Virus record (IMG/VR): IMGVR_UViG_3300024339_000061
Span: 1-28,754 of that record
Source: a virus
Length of the DNA: 28,754 nt
Direction: 5' to 3' (one strand)
Shown: positions 3,656 through 23,174 of the stretch, in pieces
Numbering within the stretch: the stretch's first letter is position 1
Layout: each line of letters starts with the position of its first letter
The notes under the pieces: model-generated
The model's input: the letters and a program-made list of their open reading frames with translations, nothing else
Told to the model about the DNA's origin: nothing
The model's database searches: none
Made by a program: the position numbers and the translations under genes

Positions 3656-3832
3656 CCTTGCCTCGCCCCGCCGAGCCACGCCGCGCCTAGCCTGGCCGCG
3701 CCTTGCCTGCCTTGCTTTGCCTTGCCTAGCCGCGCCTGGCCCTGCCATGCCTAGCCTAGCCACGCCTGCCTTGCCTTGCCCAGCCACGCCTGGCCCTGCC
3801 ATGCCTCGCCTGCCTTGCCTTGCCCAGCCCAG
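3656..3832. repeat. CCNNG pentamer array 1
   Basis: About 35 near-continuous units of CCNNG (CCTTG, CCTCG, CCCCG, CCGAG, CCACG, CCGCG, CCTAG, CCTGG and so on). The outer CC..G stays fixed while the two inner bases vary. Occasional 4-base CCTG units break the phase. A block GCCACGCCTGGCCCTGCCATG-like appears in near-repeated form. On the transcribed minus strand the RNA reads CNNGG. The array lies between the 153-aa gene and the helicase gene. The plus-strand ORF across it is a low-complexity shadow. Confidence 0.95.
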
Positions 3833-4963: not shown

Positions 4964-5054
4964 TAAGTACCTTTCATTTCAAATGAGCTTGTTGTACTGG
5001 TCACTGCTCGCTCGTTACAGTGCCAGGACAGTTTGTGGAACTGCCAATCCTTTG

Positions 5055-5331
5055 CCATGCCTGCCTTGCCCCGCCTTGCCCTGCCTGGCCGCGCCTCGCC
5101 TGCCTTGCTTTGCCTAGCCTAGCCATGCCTTGCCTCGCCGAGCCTAGCCTGGCCGCGCCTCGCCTGCCTTGCTTTGCCTAGCCTAGCCATGCCTTGCCAC
5201 GCCTTGCCTGCCTTGCCCCGCCTTGCCTAGCCTTGCCGCGCCGTGCTTTGGAGTGCCTTGCCTCGCCTGCCTTGCCTTGCCTTGCTTTGCCCTGCCTGGC
5301 CGCGCCTGGCCGCGCCTGGCCCTGCCCTGCC
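5055..5331. repeat. CCNNG pentamer array 2 with internal duplication
   Basis: About 55 units of the same CCNNG type as array 1, again with 4-base CCTG interruptions and a few CTTTG units. A 51-base block at 5084-5134 is repeated without mismatch at 5148-5198, a 64-base offset, showing recent expansion by recombination or slippage. The array lies between the polymerase terminator and the RAMP-like gene. It has no start codon with a ribosome binding site and no protein-like composition in the sense strand. Confidence 0.95.
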
Positions 5332-5422: not shown

Positions 5423-7156
5423 TCACCAGCTTTGCTCCTCATAAGCGCAATCACGCATAGTTGATCGGGCCTCTTTGATGTACCAGTCGTAGTTAATGTC
5501 GGTTGGTAGTTCGGCAGGGAGATCCATCAGAGGACGAGCGCCGTCTGTGCGCGGCACCTTGTTACCGTTCTTCTTGTAATTAATAGTCCCCTCCACCTCA
5601 GTGGAGTAGTACCAACGGATCATCTTGCCGATCAGCTCATCATCCTTAACTGCTCCACCAGTCACTCTACGGATGGTTAGGAACTTGGTGATGTCGGTGC
5701 AATTACAGATGTAATCTTCAATAGGCTGATAGGTCAGCGCATTGTTGGTGATTGCCTCAAAGCAGATGCGGTTGGTAGGGTTCTTCATCAATCCTGGTGT
5801 GGCGAATATTCCCTTACCTTTGATCTCGCTCCCCTTCACAGCGAAGTAGTTATTCACATCACGGCTGTAGAGGGATTCATAACGTGTCTCCTCCATCTCA
5901 AAGCCGGTCTGCTTCTCCCAATCTGCTACAAGTTGATCCACTGCATTAGTCAAATCAGCACTGTGCTTAACTACAATGCCATCAGTGTTCCCACTCACTA
6001 CTGGCACTCCCATACCCTCCAATTGTTCAATGAGCATCAGGAGCGCGAGTTGACCGGTCAGTGTGACCTGGGTTAGCAGGGTGGGGGAGTAGAGGAATGA
6101 CCACTTGGAGCCAAATTTTCCAAACGATCCATTGATCGTGATCTTGAGCGAGTCAGCAACAACCTTGTTACCACTGCGCTTTGCTCTGATCCGCTCATTA
6201 ACTATTGACCCATACACATCCAGGAACTGCTCCCCTAACTGCTCTGGGTACAATCTTTGACCAAGAATCACTCCTGGGTAGTAGCTAGTCACATCGAAAT
6301 CGCGCAGCACGGTGTCATTATCGGAATGGTGGGCTGCACATTTTTCAGTAGAGTGGAGCCCGCCAATACCAAAACTGTAAACACTGTTACCGATTCCGAT
6401 ATGCTTCTTATCCAGCTTTGGGGCAATGACTTTGAGCTTATCGTTGAGGCTGAACTTGGCACCCTCAACAATGCCCCCATTGGTCATCCATTCAGGAGGC
6501 TGATACTGCCACTCCAGGCTCGCATCAATGGTTGGTTTGGGGGTGTTATCCAGCTTGTTGCGGAATACCGCTTCTGCAATCTGGGCATCTGACTTGCTCA
6601 TCAGATCGGTGTTGTACTCAGCGCTCATTCTCCTGCGAAGATCGAGCTGTGCCCCTAGTGAGCGATAGAGCTGTTCAGTTACGTCCACATCGTTATGGCA
6701 ATACTTAGTGATCAGCTCTTTCTGCTCATCAGTAAGCACTGTGTCTGGTTCAAGTGGGAGATCCTGCATCTTGGGGGAGTGCATCCTCCCGCCGTACTGC
6801 TTCAGTGATACCTGCACCCCTGGAGCGACTTCGTATAGATCGATGCTACTCATCTTGTGCATGGGTATCTGAGGGTTGTGCTGCCAATGCTTCATATTGC
6901 TATTGATGATCTTGTCATTGAGAGCTTTGATCTGTTCGTGGGTAGTGACCTTCCCATCCGCAATACGCCAGAGGATGGGAAGGTCATAGTTATTTGAGTT
7001 AAAGCCCACCATTGTTTTGGTAAGTAGGAGCTTTTTAATCTCCTGTGCATCCTCAAGGTAGTGCACACGATGCGCGCCAGTCTTGATTGAGCGGAATACC
7101 GCGACAAAGAAGTTTGGATAAACTTCGATGTCAACAATGATGGGCTGCTTGCTCAT
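5423..7156 (-). CDS. Compact family-B-like DNA polymerase with 3'-5' exonuclease, 577 aa
   Basis: Exonuclease motifs: DIE (residues 9-11), FNSNNYD (52-58) and YCHND (152-156). Polymerase motifs: DVTSYYP (288-294, motif A), K338 to G346 in the LKITINGSFG segment (motif B) and GNTDG (389-393, motif C). In motif C the first aspartate of the usual DTD is asparagine. At 577 aa it is far shorter than typical family B enzymes and resembles the compact polymerases of phages that also carry DUF2815 and DUF2800 genes. It replicates or repairs phage DNA together with the ssDNA-binding protein upstream, whose stop lies two bases before this ATG. A terminator follows. Confidence 0.9.
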   Translation of the reverse strand: MSKQPIIVDIEVYPNFFVAVFRSIKTGAHRVHYLEDAQEIKKLLLTKTMVGFNSNNYDLPILWRIADGKVTTHEQIKALNDKIINSNMKHWQHNPQIPMHKMSSIDLYEVAPGVQVSLKQYGGRMHSPKMQDLPLEPDTVLTDEQKELITKYCHNDVDVTEQLYRSLGAQLDLRRRMSAEYNTDLMSKSDAQIAEAVFRNKLDNTPKPTIDASLEWQYQPPEWMTNGGIVEGAKFSLNDKLKVIAPKLDKKHIGIGNSVYSFGIGGLHSTEKCAAHHSDNDTVLRDFDVTSYYPGVILGQRLYPEQLGEQFLDVYGSIVNERIRAKRSGNKVVADSLKITINGSFGKFGSKWSFLYSPTLLTQVTLTGQLALLMLIEQLEGMGVPVVSGNTDGIVVKHSADLTNAVDQLVADWEKQTGFEMEETRYESLYSRDVNNYFAVKGSEIKGKGIFATPGLMKNPTNRICFEAITNNALTYQPIEDYICNCTDITKFLTIRRVTGGAVKDDELIGKMIRWYYSTEVEGTINYKKNGNKVPRTDGARPLMDLPAELPTDINYDWYIKEARSTMRDCAYEEQSW

Positions 7157-10484: not shown

Positions 10485-10534
10485 AACCGTCTTAACCGTC
10501 TTAACCGTCTTAACCGTCTTAACCGTCTTAACCG
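10485..10534. repeat. Five tandem 9-bp repeats after cro
   Basis: Five exact copies of AACCGTCTT (10485-10529) plus a partial AACCG. The 9-base unit would encode Asn-Arg-Leu in one frame, but stops on both sides and the absence of a start argue against coding. It lies between the Cro-like gene and a strong hairpin and could be a protein-binding iteron or a processing or antitermination signal. Confidence 0.95.
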
Positions 10535-10576: not shown

Positions 10577-10617
10577 AAAACCCACATCGACCGTGGAAAG
10601 TCATTGATGTGGGTTTT
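10577..10617 (+). terminator. Long hairpin after cro, probable terminator
   Basis: AAAACCCACATC (10577-10588) pairs with GATGTGGGTTTT (10606-10617) in a 12-bp perfect stem with a 17-base loop. The descending arm ends in TTTT, and the complementary strand also has a T run, so it may stop transcription from both sides. It would limit rightward early transcripts after cro unless an antiterminator acts. Confidence 0.7.
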
Positions 10618-14989: not shown

Positions 14990-15285
14990 TGCGGATGGGA
15001 ATGGGAATGGATGGGCTTGAAGGCATAGAGCTGGCTGAGGCATTAGTGGCTGAGGCATTAGTGGCTGAGGCCGACCAGATCCACAAGCTGGTGATGAACT
15101 TACTGGACAATGTTGGGGGGCGACCAGCACTGCAGGTGTTCTATGGGCTGGTGGGTACTGTGGCGATTATCGCTCAGACAGTAGCCGATAGCTCAGAGAG
15201 TGATGTTGAAGCCGTGGTTGAACTGTTTACCGACGAGGTGTTGAACGAGATAACGATGGCGAGAACGGCGCAGGTTAGGCATTGA
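14986..15285 (+). CDS. Hypothetical phage protein with internal repeats, 99 aa
   Basis: Begins at ATG 14986 (ATGATG, overlapping the nuclease stop), with GGAG five bases upstream. The opening is methionine-rich (MMRMGMGMDGLEG). LAEALVAEALVAEAD follows, from a 15-base tandem repeat. The rest is helical and acidic (LVMNLLDNVGGRPALQVFYG; ESDVEAVVELFTDEVLNEI). No family recognised. Its place suggests replication or late-switch support. Confidence 0.65.
   Translation: MMRMGMGMDGLEGIELAEALVAEALVAEADQIHKLVMNLLDNVGGRPALQVFYGLVGTVAIIAQTVADSSESDVEAVVELFTDEVLNEITMARTAQVRH
15034..15072 (+). repeat. 15-bp in-frame tandem repeat
   Basis: GGCTGAGGCATTAGT occurs at 15034-15048 and 15049-15063, followed by the first nine bases of a third copy. 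It adds five residues (AEALV) per unit within the 99-aa protein without breaking the frame. Confidence 0.9.
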
Positions 15286-15709: not shown

Positions 15710-15970
15710 TTAAAACACGCTGAGAGGGCTTACAACAGCCTTAGAAGCAAGATGGATGGCGTAGGTCATAGGGATATAGTACCCGCAGAAAATGTCATCT
15801 TTGATGATCTCTCCATCCATCATTTGATATCCGTCTGCCTCGGCGGCTAGAGTCTCCCGACTCCCTTGTGCGACCGCTGCCAGTAAATCCTCAGCAGTCG
15901 TTACCCTGGCATCAGGGCTGATGCCTCGGCTGATCGCGATGTGTCCGTTATTTGCGTTGAAAAATGACAT
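15710..15970 (-). CDS. Small hypothetical protein, 86 aa, with multiple possible starts
   Basis: The core protein starts at ATG 15970 (MSFFNANNGHIAISRG...), 8 bases after AGGAG. Upstream are four more in-frame ATGs, at 15988, 16006, 16024 and 16042, each with its own AGGAG, supplied by five tandem 18-base repeats. Each earlier start would add the six residues MSGDNT. The body is mixed alpha/beta with no recognised motif (DLLAAVAQGSRETLAAEADG; DDIFCGYYIPMTYA). It is the last gene of the minus-strand operon and convergent with the Q-like gene. Confidence 0.6.
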   Translation of the reverse strand: MSFFNANNGHIAISRGISPDARVTTAEDLLAAVAQGSRETLAAEADGYQMMDGEIIKDDIFCGYYIPMTYAIHLASKAVVSPLSVF

Positions 15971-16055
15971 TGTGTTATCTCCTGACATTGTGTTATCTCC
16001 TGACATTGTGTTATCTCCTGACATTGTGTTATCTCCTGACATTGTGTTATCTCCT
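15966..16055 (-). repeat. Five tandem 18-bp repeats, each an SD plus ATG
   Basis: The coding-strand unit is AGGAGATAACACAATGTC, present in five exact copies. Each carries AGGAG, an 8-base spacer and ATG. The 18-base length keeps all starts in the same frame, so the locus offers five complete translation initiation sites in series for the 86-aa protein. Confidence 0.97.
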
Positions 16056-16064
16056 GTTGAGGGT

Positions 16065-16532
16065 TTAATTAATCCCGTAGTCGCTATCAATCTTGCTGTA
16101 CATCTCTGCATCAACCTCCGCACAAATTACTGTACCAGCTCCAAGGCTATCCAGTGACGTGTAGAACGTCTCCTGATCTAGTGTGGTGCAGGTATCGTCT
16201 ATTGAATCAGCGAGATACACGCCATTGTTGAGGGATGCCTTCAAGGTTATGCGGTGGTCAGGCTCGTCTGCGGTGTAGTTGGTGGGTGTGTCTTGAGTGT
16301 GCAGATGTTTATCACCGTGAAGGGTTTGGAGTTTGAGCTCTAACAGCTCAACACAGCATGGGCCGGGTGATCGTGCGGCGGCTGATTTATCGGGCAGGCT
16401 CCACGCCTTGACAGTATGTACGGACACACCAAGTATGGCAGCGATCTGGTTCCACGTTAGTTTATGCACCAGCTTGAGAGACTTTAGTCTGGCCTGTTCT
16501 TCCGTCATTGATGTATCATATATTAGGTTCAT
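16065..16532 (-). CDS. HTH-containing phage protein, 155 aa
   Basis: Residues 9-45 (TEEQARLKSLKLVHKLTWNQ followed by IAAILGVSVHTVKAWSLP) form a clear helix-turn-helix of the XRE/transposase-like type. A basic segment (KSAAARSPGPCCVELLELKL) follows, with an acidic, less defined C-terminal region. It is likely a DNA-binding regulator of this operon; the palindrome in the operon promoter (17,341-17,355) is a possible target. GGAA precedes the ATG. No integrase or nuclease motif is seen. Confidence 0.75.
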   Translation of the reverse strand: MNLIYDTSMTEEQARLKSLKLVHKLTWNQIAAILGVSVHTVKAWSLPDKSAAARSPGPCCVELLELKLQTLHGDKHLHTQDTPTNYTADEPDHRITLKASLNNGVYLADSIDDTCTTLDQETFYTSLDSLGAGTVICAEVDAEMYSKIDSDYGIN

Positions 16533-16605: not shown

Positions 16606-17274
16606 TTACTCCTCTGTTATTCTGACAGGCATAAGGATTGCCGTTGCAGCGTCTGTTTTGTAGATTGCAGCAGTCTCGTTATCTCTCACATACCAGATGC
16701 CTGACGGATCGAACGAGATCACTTTCTTATAGAATTCCAGGTTGACCCAGACGCTGGCTTGTTCGTATTGAGAGACCAGTTTGATAGCCGTAGCAGGCTT
16801 TTTGTTTAATTCAGTTGGTGCGGTTTCGATGGTTGACAGGTCAACAGGGGCGCAAACGCTCATTGTATCGATGTTTGGCACAACCCTCTGCCAATTTGGG
16901 TACTTCCAGTGATACGTATGGCCTGATGGTAGCGGGGCTAATGTTTTTGGGTCATACCATCCGTTCTCCCATTCTGTTGTGATAGTGGCTAGGTAATACC
17001 CACCAGAGGCAACCATGGTGCCATCTTCTACATAAATAGCGTTCAGGTAGTACCGTGGGTCTCTAACACCAGCGAATTTTGCTACCCATTGCTCGATGCT
17101 TTTGGGCTTGGCGGGCGTTGCAGGTGTGAAGAATTGAAACAGCCGGATTAAATCCTGCTCATGATCATCTGGCAGTTTGTCTGCCAGCTTACGCATGAGA
17201 TTAAAGGCTTCGTTTTTGGTTGGCTTCTTCTGTGTGGTAACGGCCGCGTGGCCTAATATTGTTGATGCGTTCAT
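16606..17274 (-). CDS. Possible sliding-clamp-like phage protein, 222 aa
   Basis: The middle of the protein (YLNAIYVEDGTMVASGGYYL, then GWYDPKTLAPLPSG, then KYPNWQRVVPN) resembles a family of phage proteins similar to parts of the DNA polymerase III beta clamp, where a 'YVEDG--VATDG--L' strand pair precedes 'G-Y-P' and 'YP--RVIP'. That is a recalled pattern. At 222 aa it is shorter than a full bacterial clamp (~370 aa). It could aid the phage polymerase. First gene of the minus operon, with GGAG 10 bases before the ATG. Confidence 0.5.
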   Translation of the reverse strand: MNASTILGHAAVTTQKKPTKNEAFNLMRKLADKLPDDHEQDLIRLFQFFTPATPAKPKSIEQWVAKFAGVRDPRYYLNAIYVEDGTMVASGGYYLATITTEWENGWYDPKTLAPLPSGHTYHWKYPNWQRVVPNIDTMSVCAPVDLSTIETAPTELNKKPATAIKLVSQYEQASVWVNLEFYKKVISFDPSGIWYVRDNETAAIYKTDAATAILMPVRITEE

Positions 17275-17334
17275 CGTCGTTTACTCCGTTTAAGTAATTA
17301 AAAAGTAGAGTTGTTGGTGCAACTCATGACCTGA

Positions 17335-17364
17335 ACTATAGTATACAATGTATACCAAAGTCAA
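17335..17364 (-). promoter_or_regulatory. Promoter of the clamp-like/HTH operon with palindromic operator
   Basis: Reading leftward, -35 TTGACT (17,364-17,359), an 18-base spacer and -10 TATAGT (17,340-17,335). The spacer contains the 15-bp palindrome GTATAC-ATT-GTATAC (17,341-17,355). A protein bound there would block RNA polymerase, so the operon is probably repressed, perhaps by its own HTH protein. Confidence 0.8.
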
Positions 17365-22310: not shown

Positions 22311-23174
22311 ATGAGTAATGACTTTGCATCCGCTTTTAAGGAGGCTGTTTCGGGAGAGACCGCTGAAGAGAAAGCCGAAGAGACGACAGAGGTTGTTGAA
22401 GAGGTAGTAGCTGAGGAAGTAGTAGCTGAAAAGGCTGAAGAGGTTGCCCCCGAAGAGCCAGTGGCTGAGGCAGTGGAAGAGGCTCCGGCCACTCCTGCAA
22501 TGTCTGCAGATGACCTCAAAGAGTTTACCAGGCTTCAGCAGTATGAGAAGTCGAATGAAGGGCGGGTTGCGGCCTACCAGCGAAAGGTTACAGAGTTGCA
22601 ACACGCAGCACAGCAGACACCGAAGACTCCTGCCCCTGCAGAGATACCGGAGGCATCCAAGGAGAAGTGGGCTGCGTTTGAGAAAGAATACCCTGAGATT
22701 GCACAGGCGATGAATGCCAAGCTCACATCGATGCAATCTCAGTTAGACACGACTGTACAGCAGACCGTACAGCCCCTGCATAAAGCAGAACAGAACCGTT
22801 ACATCCAGGGTCAAGCAGACGCACTGGAGGCCGCGCATCCCGGTTGGAGGGATATCGCCGCTTCTGAGCAGTTTGGCGGATGGATGAAGCAACAGCCACC
22901 GGCTGTGCAGCAGATGCTCAGAAGCAGCACAGCTTCTGACGCTGCGTACTTAATTGGTGCTTACAAGAGCACCCTTACCCCTCAGACGCAGGATGTTGTG
23001 GAGGTTCCGAAAGAGGAGTCTGCACAAGAGAATGTTTCTGAAATCCAGGCTCAACGTGAAAAGCGTTTGAAAGAGTCACAGGGAATCAAATCGAAGCCGT
23101 CCCCGACCGCTTCAGGTGGAGTTCCCCAGGACTTTGAATCCGCTTTCAAATACTTCGCTGCACAAGGGAAGTAG
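22311..23174 (+). CDS. Scaffolding-like protein, 287 aa
   Basis: The N-terminal 60 residues are low-complexity acidic (EEKAEETTEVVEEVVAEE). Long helices with coiled-coil character follow (AAYQRKVTELQHAAQ; WAAFEKEYPEIAQAMNAKLT), with a C-terminal helix (PQDFESAFKYFAAQGK). Composition and place directly before the major capsid gene are typical of capsid scaffolding proteins. GGAGAAG precedes the ATG. Confidence 0.85.
   Translation: MSNDFASAFKEAVSGETAEEKAEETTEVVEEVVAEEVVAEKAEEVAPEEPVAEAVEEAPATPAMSADDLKEFTRLQQYEKSNEGRVAAYQRKVTELQHAAQQTPKTPAPAEIPEASKEKWAAFEKEYPEIAQAMNAKLTSMQSQLDTTVQQTVQPLHKAEQNRYIQGQADALEAAHPGWRDIAASEQFGGWMKQQPPAVQQMLRSSTASDAAYLIGAYKSTLTPQTQDVVEVPKEESAQENVSEIQAQREKRLKESQGIKSKPSPTASGGVPQDFESAFKYFAAQGK

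Follow-up and report, generated by a model that had tools for sequence, protein, structure and literature searches.

The DNA analyzed here, referred to as the window, comprises 28,754 bases and corresponds to one virus record. It encodes a CI-like S24 repressor, a small HTH protein whose gene diverges from that of the repressor, replication genes, a terminase, a portal protein and capsid proteins, and this gene content indicates that the phage is probably temperate. The closest relatives of the terminase, portal and repressor were mostly from phages of Gram-negative bacteria. The best three matches to the capsid protein were also from phages of Gram-negative hosts, and Bacillus and Streptomyces phages made up much of the list. 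Judged from these sequence matches, a Gram-negative host is probable. The product of the gene at 5423-7156 (577 aa) gave weak matches to DNA polymerase B, far below the cut-off in NCBIfam (E 8e-11) and also below it in Pfam (DNA_pol_B_2), and may be a short, divergent polymerase of family B.

The feature studied is an array of tandem translation start sites at the head of the third and last gene of a minus-strand operon, in which genes for a 222-aa protein and a 155-aa HTH protein come first and second. The features of the region are as follows.

17335-17364, minus strand: promoter-like site, TTGACT-18-TATAGT, with which an imperfect palindrome (17335-17361) overlaps.
16606-17274, minus strand: first operon gene, 222 aa, no Pfam family and weak PHROG matches only.
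16065-16532, minus strand: upstream gene, 155 aa, helix-turn-helix protein (HTH_23, E 9e-6).
16038-16055, minus strand: start-site copy 1 (5'-most), AGGAG at 16051-16055 and ATG at 16040-16042.
16020-16037, minus strand: start-site copy 2, identical, ATG at 16022-16024.
16002-16019, minus strand: start-site copy 3, identical, ATG at 16004-16006.
15984-16001, minus strand: start-site copy 4, identical, ATG at 15986-15988.
15966-15983, minus strand: start-site copy 5 (3'-most, presumed ancestral), AGGAG at 15979-15983 and ATG at 15968-15970.
15710-15970, minus strand: array gene, 86 codons from the last ATG (15970) and 110 from the first (16042), predicted pI 4.6.

There were three promoter-like sites in the region compared to 5.3 in shuffled sequences, so the one listed is weak by itself. 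The 155-aa HTH protein is a possible autoregulator of the operon. Searches for relatives of the region using neighboring genes as bait recovered none with the 222-aa gene, none with the primase and, in phages, none with the HTH gene. The terminase recovered four loci, among them a sister viral contig (L121) that has 99.3% identity to the window from 17262 on and stops short of the array region. The minus-strand gene that replaces the 222-aa gene in L121 encodes ArdA, an antirestriction protein (E 2e-21), and the palindrome by the promoter-like site is GTATACAATGTATAC in the window versus GGGACAATGTCCC in L121. Across the swap region (17262-17361 compared to L121:1-490), the first codons (MNAS) are kept. 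This difference looks like the exchange of a self-regulated counter-defence cassette plus its operator, and the gene swap together with the change of palindrome places the array gene in a swappable accessory cassette. That the array gene itself serves in counter-defence is a guess based on its position.

The array (15966-16055) consists of five perfect 18-bp copies of AGGAGATAACACAATGTC, back to back, each made up of AGGAG, 8 nt, ATG and TC. A previous sequence-only reading of the window had noticed five unchanged in-frame units of AGGAG, spacer and ATG without giving a strand; our analysis confirmed them and placed them on the minus strand. Tandem repeat analysis (TRF) gave 15965-16056, a period of 18, 5.1 copies and 100% match. 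Matches to the unit expected in the shuffled window were zero, even with up to three mismatches allowed (100 dinucleotide shuffles). The SD of copy 1 starts 9 nt past the stop codon of the upstream HTH gene, and the five ATGs share one frame, giving 110, 104, 98, 92 and 86 codons, with no in-frame stops between copies. Predicted RNA structure over the sites was not beyond chance (z -1.1) and the unpaired probability of the SDs was 0.44-0.68. From the z value, the start sites are not hidden beyond chance.

The gene served by the array appears to be a real coding sequence. The 86-codon body had a coding score of 0.112 in the array frame, whereas the five remaining frames ranged from -0.09 to -0.38, on a scale where known genes of the window score -0.04 to 0.33 and wrong frames have a mean of -0.21 (sd 0.08). 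A plus-strand frame that runs across the array (15921-16157) has no obvious SD before its ATG, and outside the array it scored -0.05 versus 0.28 for the minus-strand frame. We found no relatives of the 86-aa protein among phages. Searches for its relatives, which detect short exact peptides or clear similarity and may miss distant relatives, returned 31 pattern stretches in viral contigs and 236 in prokaryote genome contigs, none of which was confirmed. The protein matched no Pfam, PHROG or PADLOC family, the only NCBIfam match was a UDP-glucose epimerase far below the cut-off (E 0.08), and a single-sequence AlphaFold prediction gave a mean pLDDT of 41.6 and no usable fold.

Translation from the first ATG would add four MSGDNT units, and the fifth ATG reads directly into MSFFNA. 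If N-terminal variants carry extra MSGDNT units, as suggested, the in-frame extension would thus amount to at most four units and not to five. The extension is acidic and shifts the predicted pI from 4.60 to 4.18. It could be that translation starts at the first ATG, that (MSGDNT)4 is a functional N-terminus and that repetition of the SD and ATG is incidental; the array is in frame, and most repetitive pattern matches elsewhere (see below) are coding repeats. However, the repeat unit is an SD and start at 8-nt spacing, and the units sit precisely where the gene begins, immediately behind the stop of the upstream gene. In addition, phage homologues of the gene behind a comparable viral array (L336) align only from residue 18 on, with numbering that begins at the last ATG, and the repeated N-terminus of that protein is thus not conserved. 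Because the SD, spacing and ATG are exactly at the gene start, the array is probably not a plain coding repeat, and we consider that explanation improbable.

Perfect direct repeats can also be iterons that bind protein, and there is a second perfect array in the window (10485-10534). Eighteen-bp spacing does not place sites on one face of the helix, though, and the presence of AGGAG plus an ATG in the coding frame in every copy argues against both a DNA-level element and an assembly error. The array is only 92 bp, a length that usual short reads exceed. An element acting at the DNA level or an error of assembly is even less probable than a coding repeat.

Arrays of this kind have been built as an expression tool. 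According to the available text of Zhang et al. 2022, when gfp in Bacillus licheniformis was preceded by 1-6 SD-start units in frame, output increased, reaching fivefold with six copies; each copy gave a protein band of its own, indicating that every copy was used, and mRNA level and stability were unchanged (PMC9723656). The best spacing was 8 nt, SD-SD distances of 15-21 nt were effective and start codons were required; output also increased in B. subtilis and C. glutamicum. Results differed in E. coli, where DH5alpha used the last start only and output fell, and BL21(DE3) used the first and last starts with output slightly down (PMC9723656). The same text describes multi-RBS genes as rarely reported. 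In a B. megaterium silk secretion system, the available part of the report gives no gain from three or six tandem sites (PMC10821235).

The phage array has the defining properties of the engineered type: at least two tandem SD-spacer-start copies, spacing of about 8 nt, an SD-SD distance of 15-21 nt and starts in frame. Its units are identical, and its values (spacing 8 nt, SD-SD period 18 nt, five copies) fall within the effective windows given in the text available to us (PMC9723656). The engineered arrays, as described there, are synthetic, hairpin-presented, start with GTG or ATG, and work in Gram-positives and not in E. coli, whereas the phage array is unstructured and belongs to a phage of a probable Gram-negative host. 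The sequence-only reading had proposed that ribosomes could load at any copy and that copy number may tune protein output. The first proposal is in keeping with the results in B. licheniformis and the second with those in all three Gram-positive species; the DH5alpha results run against both, and the relatives of this phage are mostly from Gram-negative hosts.

There is also a case from evolved E. coli, where a 10-nt duplication, GAGGATGAAA, that makes a tandem RBS was fixed and increased ascB expression 5-6-fold (PMC4488073). It resembles the array in being a short tandem duplication of an RBS, one that arose spontaneously and raised expression; unlike the array, it has two copies of 10 nt, and the available portion of that report gives the effect as the level of ascB expression and claims no in-frame N-terminal variants. 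Mycobacterial interspersed repetitive units (MIRU), such as those at senX3-regX3, as presented in the accessible parts of two reports (PMC12548453, PMC4213456), are similar in being variable-number start-codon repeats that keep the downstream gene translated, but they are 53-77 bp (at senX3-regX3), mobile, and coupled by an overlapping stop and start (-4 nt). Because there is no overlapping stop and start between copies, the array is not a MIRU.

Slippage had also been suggested to make the array phase-variable, and in the usual on/off sense this does not hold. In phase variation by tandem repeats, units not divisible by three shift the frame and turn expression on or off, and in the Haemophilus lic genes the number of CAAT repeats by the start codons alters expression. 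Unlike the CAAT repeats, the 18-bp unit keeps the frame, so the array lacks the on/off switch of frame or promoter that characterizes a phase-variable contingency locus. It is not an on/off locus; changes of copy number would alter dose or N-terminal length.

The sequence around the array bears on its origin. The dinucleotide CA flanks the unit at both breakpoints (aaCAGGAG...ATGTCAttt), as expected if duplication occurred via a 2-bp match and was followed by expansion, and the perfect identity of the copies indicates that expansion was recent. From these sequence features, one ordinary start seems to have expanded recently into the tandem array. A single start, CAGGAG-ATAACACA-ATGT-CA, at which a small accessory gene begins, would have been duplicated by slippage or short-homology duplication and then expanded.

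Tandem repeats are frequent in this lineage. There are three perfect tandem arrays in the 28.8 kb of the window compared to 11 in 1.06 Mb from 119 other viral loci, which were picked by an SD-ATG pattern that, if anything, raises their array count. By our own arithmetic, about 0.3 would be expected in the window (Poisson chance ~0.0035). Copy number has changed elsewhere in the lineage. Between 17557 and 24028 the window and L121 differ by nine substitutions and one indel. This is the sole indel outside the swap, and it corresponds exactly to a single 15-bp tandem unit, at 22404. The unit, GTAGTAGCTGAGGAA (22404-22418), is present in the window and missing from L121, and is in frame inside a 287-aa gene that precedes the capsid gene. 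The array at 10485-10534 is a perfect 9-bp repeat (AACCGTCTT, 5.6 copies) just 3' of a small cro-like HTH gene, and is followed, before the helicase gene, by a 12-bp perfect inverted repeat (10577-10617). A perfect 15-bp repeat of 2.7 copies (15032-15071) lies within an open frame reading EALVA repeats. Degenerate GCCTT/TTGCC pentanucleotide minisatellites, ~82% alike, are found between minus-strand genes at 3656-3824 and 5052-5331.

The start array could be a neutral by-product, in which copies made by slippage are tolerated in frame, only the 3'-most start, or just one start, matters, and there is neither tuning nor selection. This lineage forms tandem repeats without start sites too (10485-10534, 15032-15071 and 22404), and in the available text only the last engineered site was active in DH5alpha (PMC9723656). 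Natural arrays are also rare and scattered across unrelated genes, as described below. On the other hand, additional copies of a strong SD-ATG unit are not likely to be inert in all hosts: by the same text, Bacillus licheniformis used all engineered copies and BL21 used no fewer than two, the first and the last (PMC9723656), and the tandem RBS of ascB, with its 5-6-fold rise, became fixed during experimental evolution of E. coli, according to the part available (PMC4488073). We consider a neutral by-product quite possible, and nearly as likely as use of multiple starts with an effect on dose.

We searched for start arrays elsewhere. Viral contigs were scanned for sets of three SDs interspersed with two ATGs, yielding 75, 40 and 30 loci for spacers of 6, 7 and 8 nt, and most of these were chance matches or coding repeats (20-30 coding-repeat loci per scan). 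A script, which re-found 39 of the 40 loci of the spacer-7 set, labelled 15 viral loci as starts. We kept eight that, by our reading, are at the head of a real-looking gene (L163, L167, L173, L304, L318, L336, L338 and L355), representing seven distinct arrays. The other seven (L145, L161, L169, L179, L332, L342 and L344) were read as coding repeats and rejected, L332 being ambiguous. A scan of 84,980 prokaryote genomes, in which A/T was forced in three spacer positions against coding repeats and which therefore undercounts, gave 13 loci, four of which were judged to be start arrays. Together there were 11 further independent arrays with at least three SDs (seven viral and four bacterial; five in frame).

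L336, viral: 15 bp, five ATGs, in frame.
L338, viral: 15 bp, three ATGs, in frame.
L304 and L355 (same array), viral: 24 bp, two ATGs and a GTG, in frame.
L318, viral: 16 bp, out of frame.
L163, viral: 22 bp, out of frame.
L167, viral: 20 bp, four copies, out of frame.
L173, viral: 20 bp, out of frame.
L195, uncultured Lentisphaeria: 18 bp, seven in-frame ATGs, before a pilin-like protein.
L207, Clostridia: 24 bp, three in-frame ATGs.
L205, bacterial: 20 bp, out of frame, gene MoxR-like by our reading.
L206, Phormidium tenue: 16 bp, three copies, out of frame, gene GST-like by our reading.

A scan for two SD-ATG units gave, among the matches listed, mostly chance occurrences; two loci (L012 and L082), with two copies each, look real. 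The full-text literature searched, mostly without subscription papers, contained no description of a similar natural array of start sites in a phage. The sequence-only reading, too, gave no described phage case, but comparable arrays in viral contigs and bacteria make the array rare rather than unique.

The gene at L206 has a single SD-start in all four orthologues examined (same family, 66-73% identity), indicating that start arrays arise anew from single starts. In the family of L195, a spacer-8 array was present in one of 36 genomes, L195's own; a near orthologue of L195 was absent from its genus set, the next best having 37% identity. Searches for a close phage relative with another copy number found none for L336, L338, L318, L163 and L167. 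In the 20-bp arrays (L167, L173 and L205) the unit junction is ATGA, and a 7-codon mini-ORF ends on the next start; as a rule for all 20-bp arrays, such coupling is not significant with three cases. Ten viral contigs (L158, L164, L168, L171, L174, L178, L180, L182, L187 and L189) have a common 18-bp repeat in differing copy numbers that reads KEEVNV in one frame, and are perhaps an independent case of tandem copy change in phages.

The explanation that we put forward is that the starts of the phage array are used at more than one copy and that copy number has a modest effect on dose, to which we assign a probability of about 0.5. Because each 18-bp unit keeps AGGAG, spacer and ATG, the gene would be expressed at any copy number. 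Ribosomes would start at several copies, at least the 5'-most and the 3'-most, and would come to the 5'-most ATG once they had terminated on the upstream gene, 22 nt before it. The protein would be made as N-terminal variants and total output would follow copy number, modestly. An exclusion model with guessed parameters, which indicates a range only, gave approximately n-fold output at weak initiation, and about 1.4-fold output with the 5'-most start dominant at strong initiation. The analysis shows the array, its frame and geometry, the coding signal, a change of copy number in another tandem unit of the lineage and independent origins of such arrays elsewhere. Dose tuning by the array is plausible on this basis; which starts would be used, how large an effect on dose would be and whether it would be selected are matters of inference.

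More broadly, natural tandem start arrays could be a recurrent, slippage-made dial for dose, with which this phage adjusts a small, possibly counter-defence, protein. In-frame units would shift output and the length of the N-terminus by small increments, never to an off state, and 20-bp ATGA units would reach the same end via a coupled stop and start. We regard this broader proposal as doubtful. The rarity of natural arrays (four in 84,980 genomes with the A/T-restricted pattern, and 1 of 36 in the L195 family) does not look like that of a widely selected device, and it counts against the explanation by multiple starts and dose put forward above.

Multi-start leaders were a new engineered expression tool in 2022, and this phage has a natural version with five copies that falls within the optimum of the engineered ones, as far as the available text defines it (PMC9723656). 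Our survey indicates that nature makes start arrays repeatedly, and that the array is not an oddity of one phage. Natural arrays are ready constructs for determining whether Gram-negative hosts, in which the engineered version failed, use several starts on one mRNA, and they also bear on whether the copy number of starts sets protein dose reversibly.
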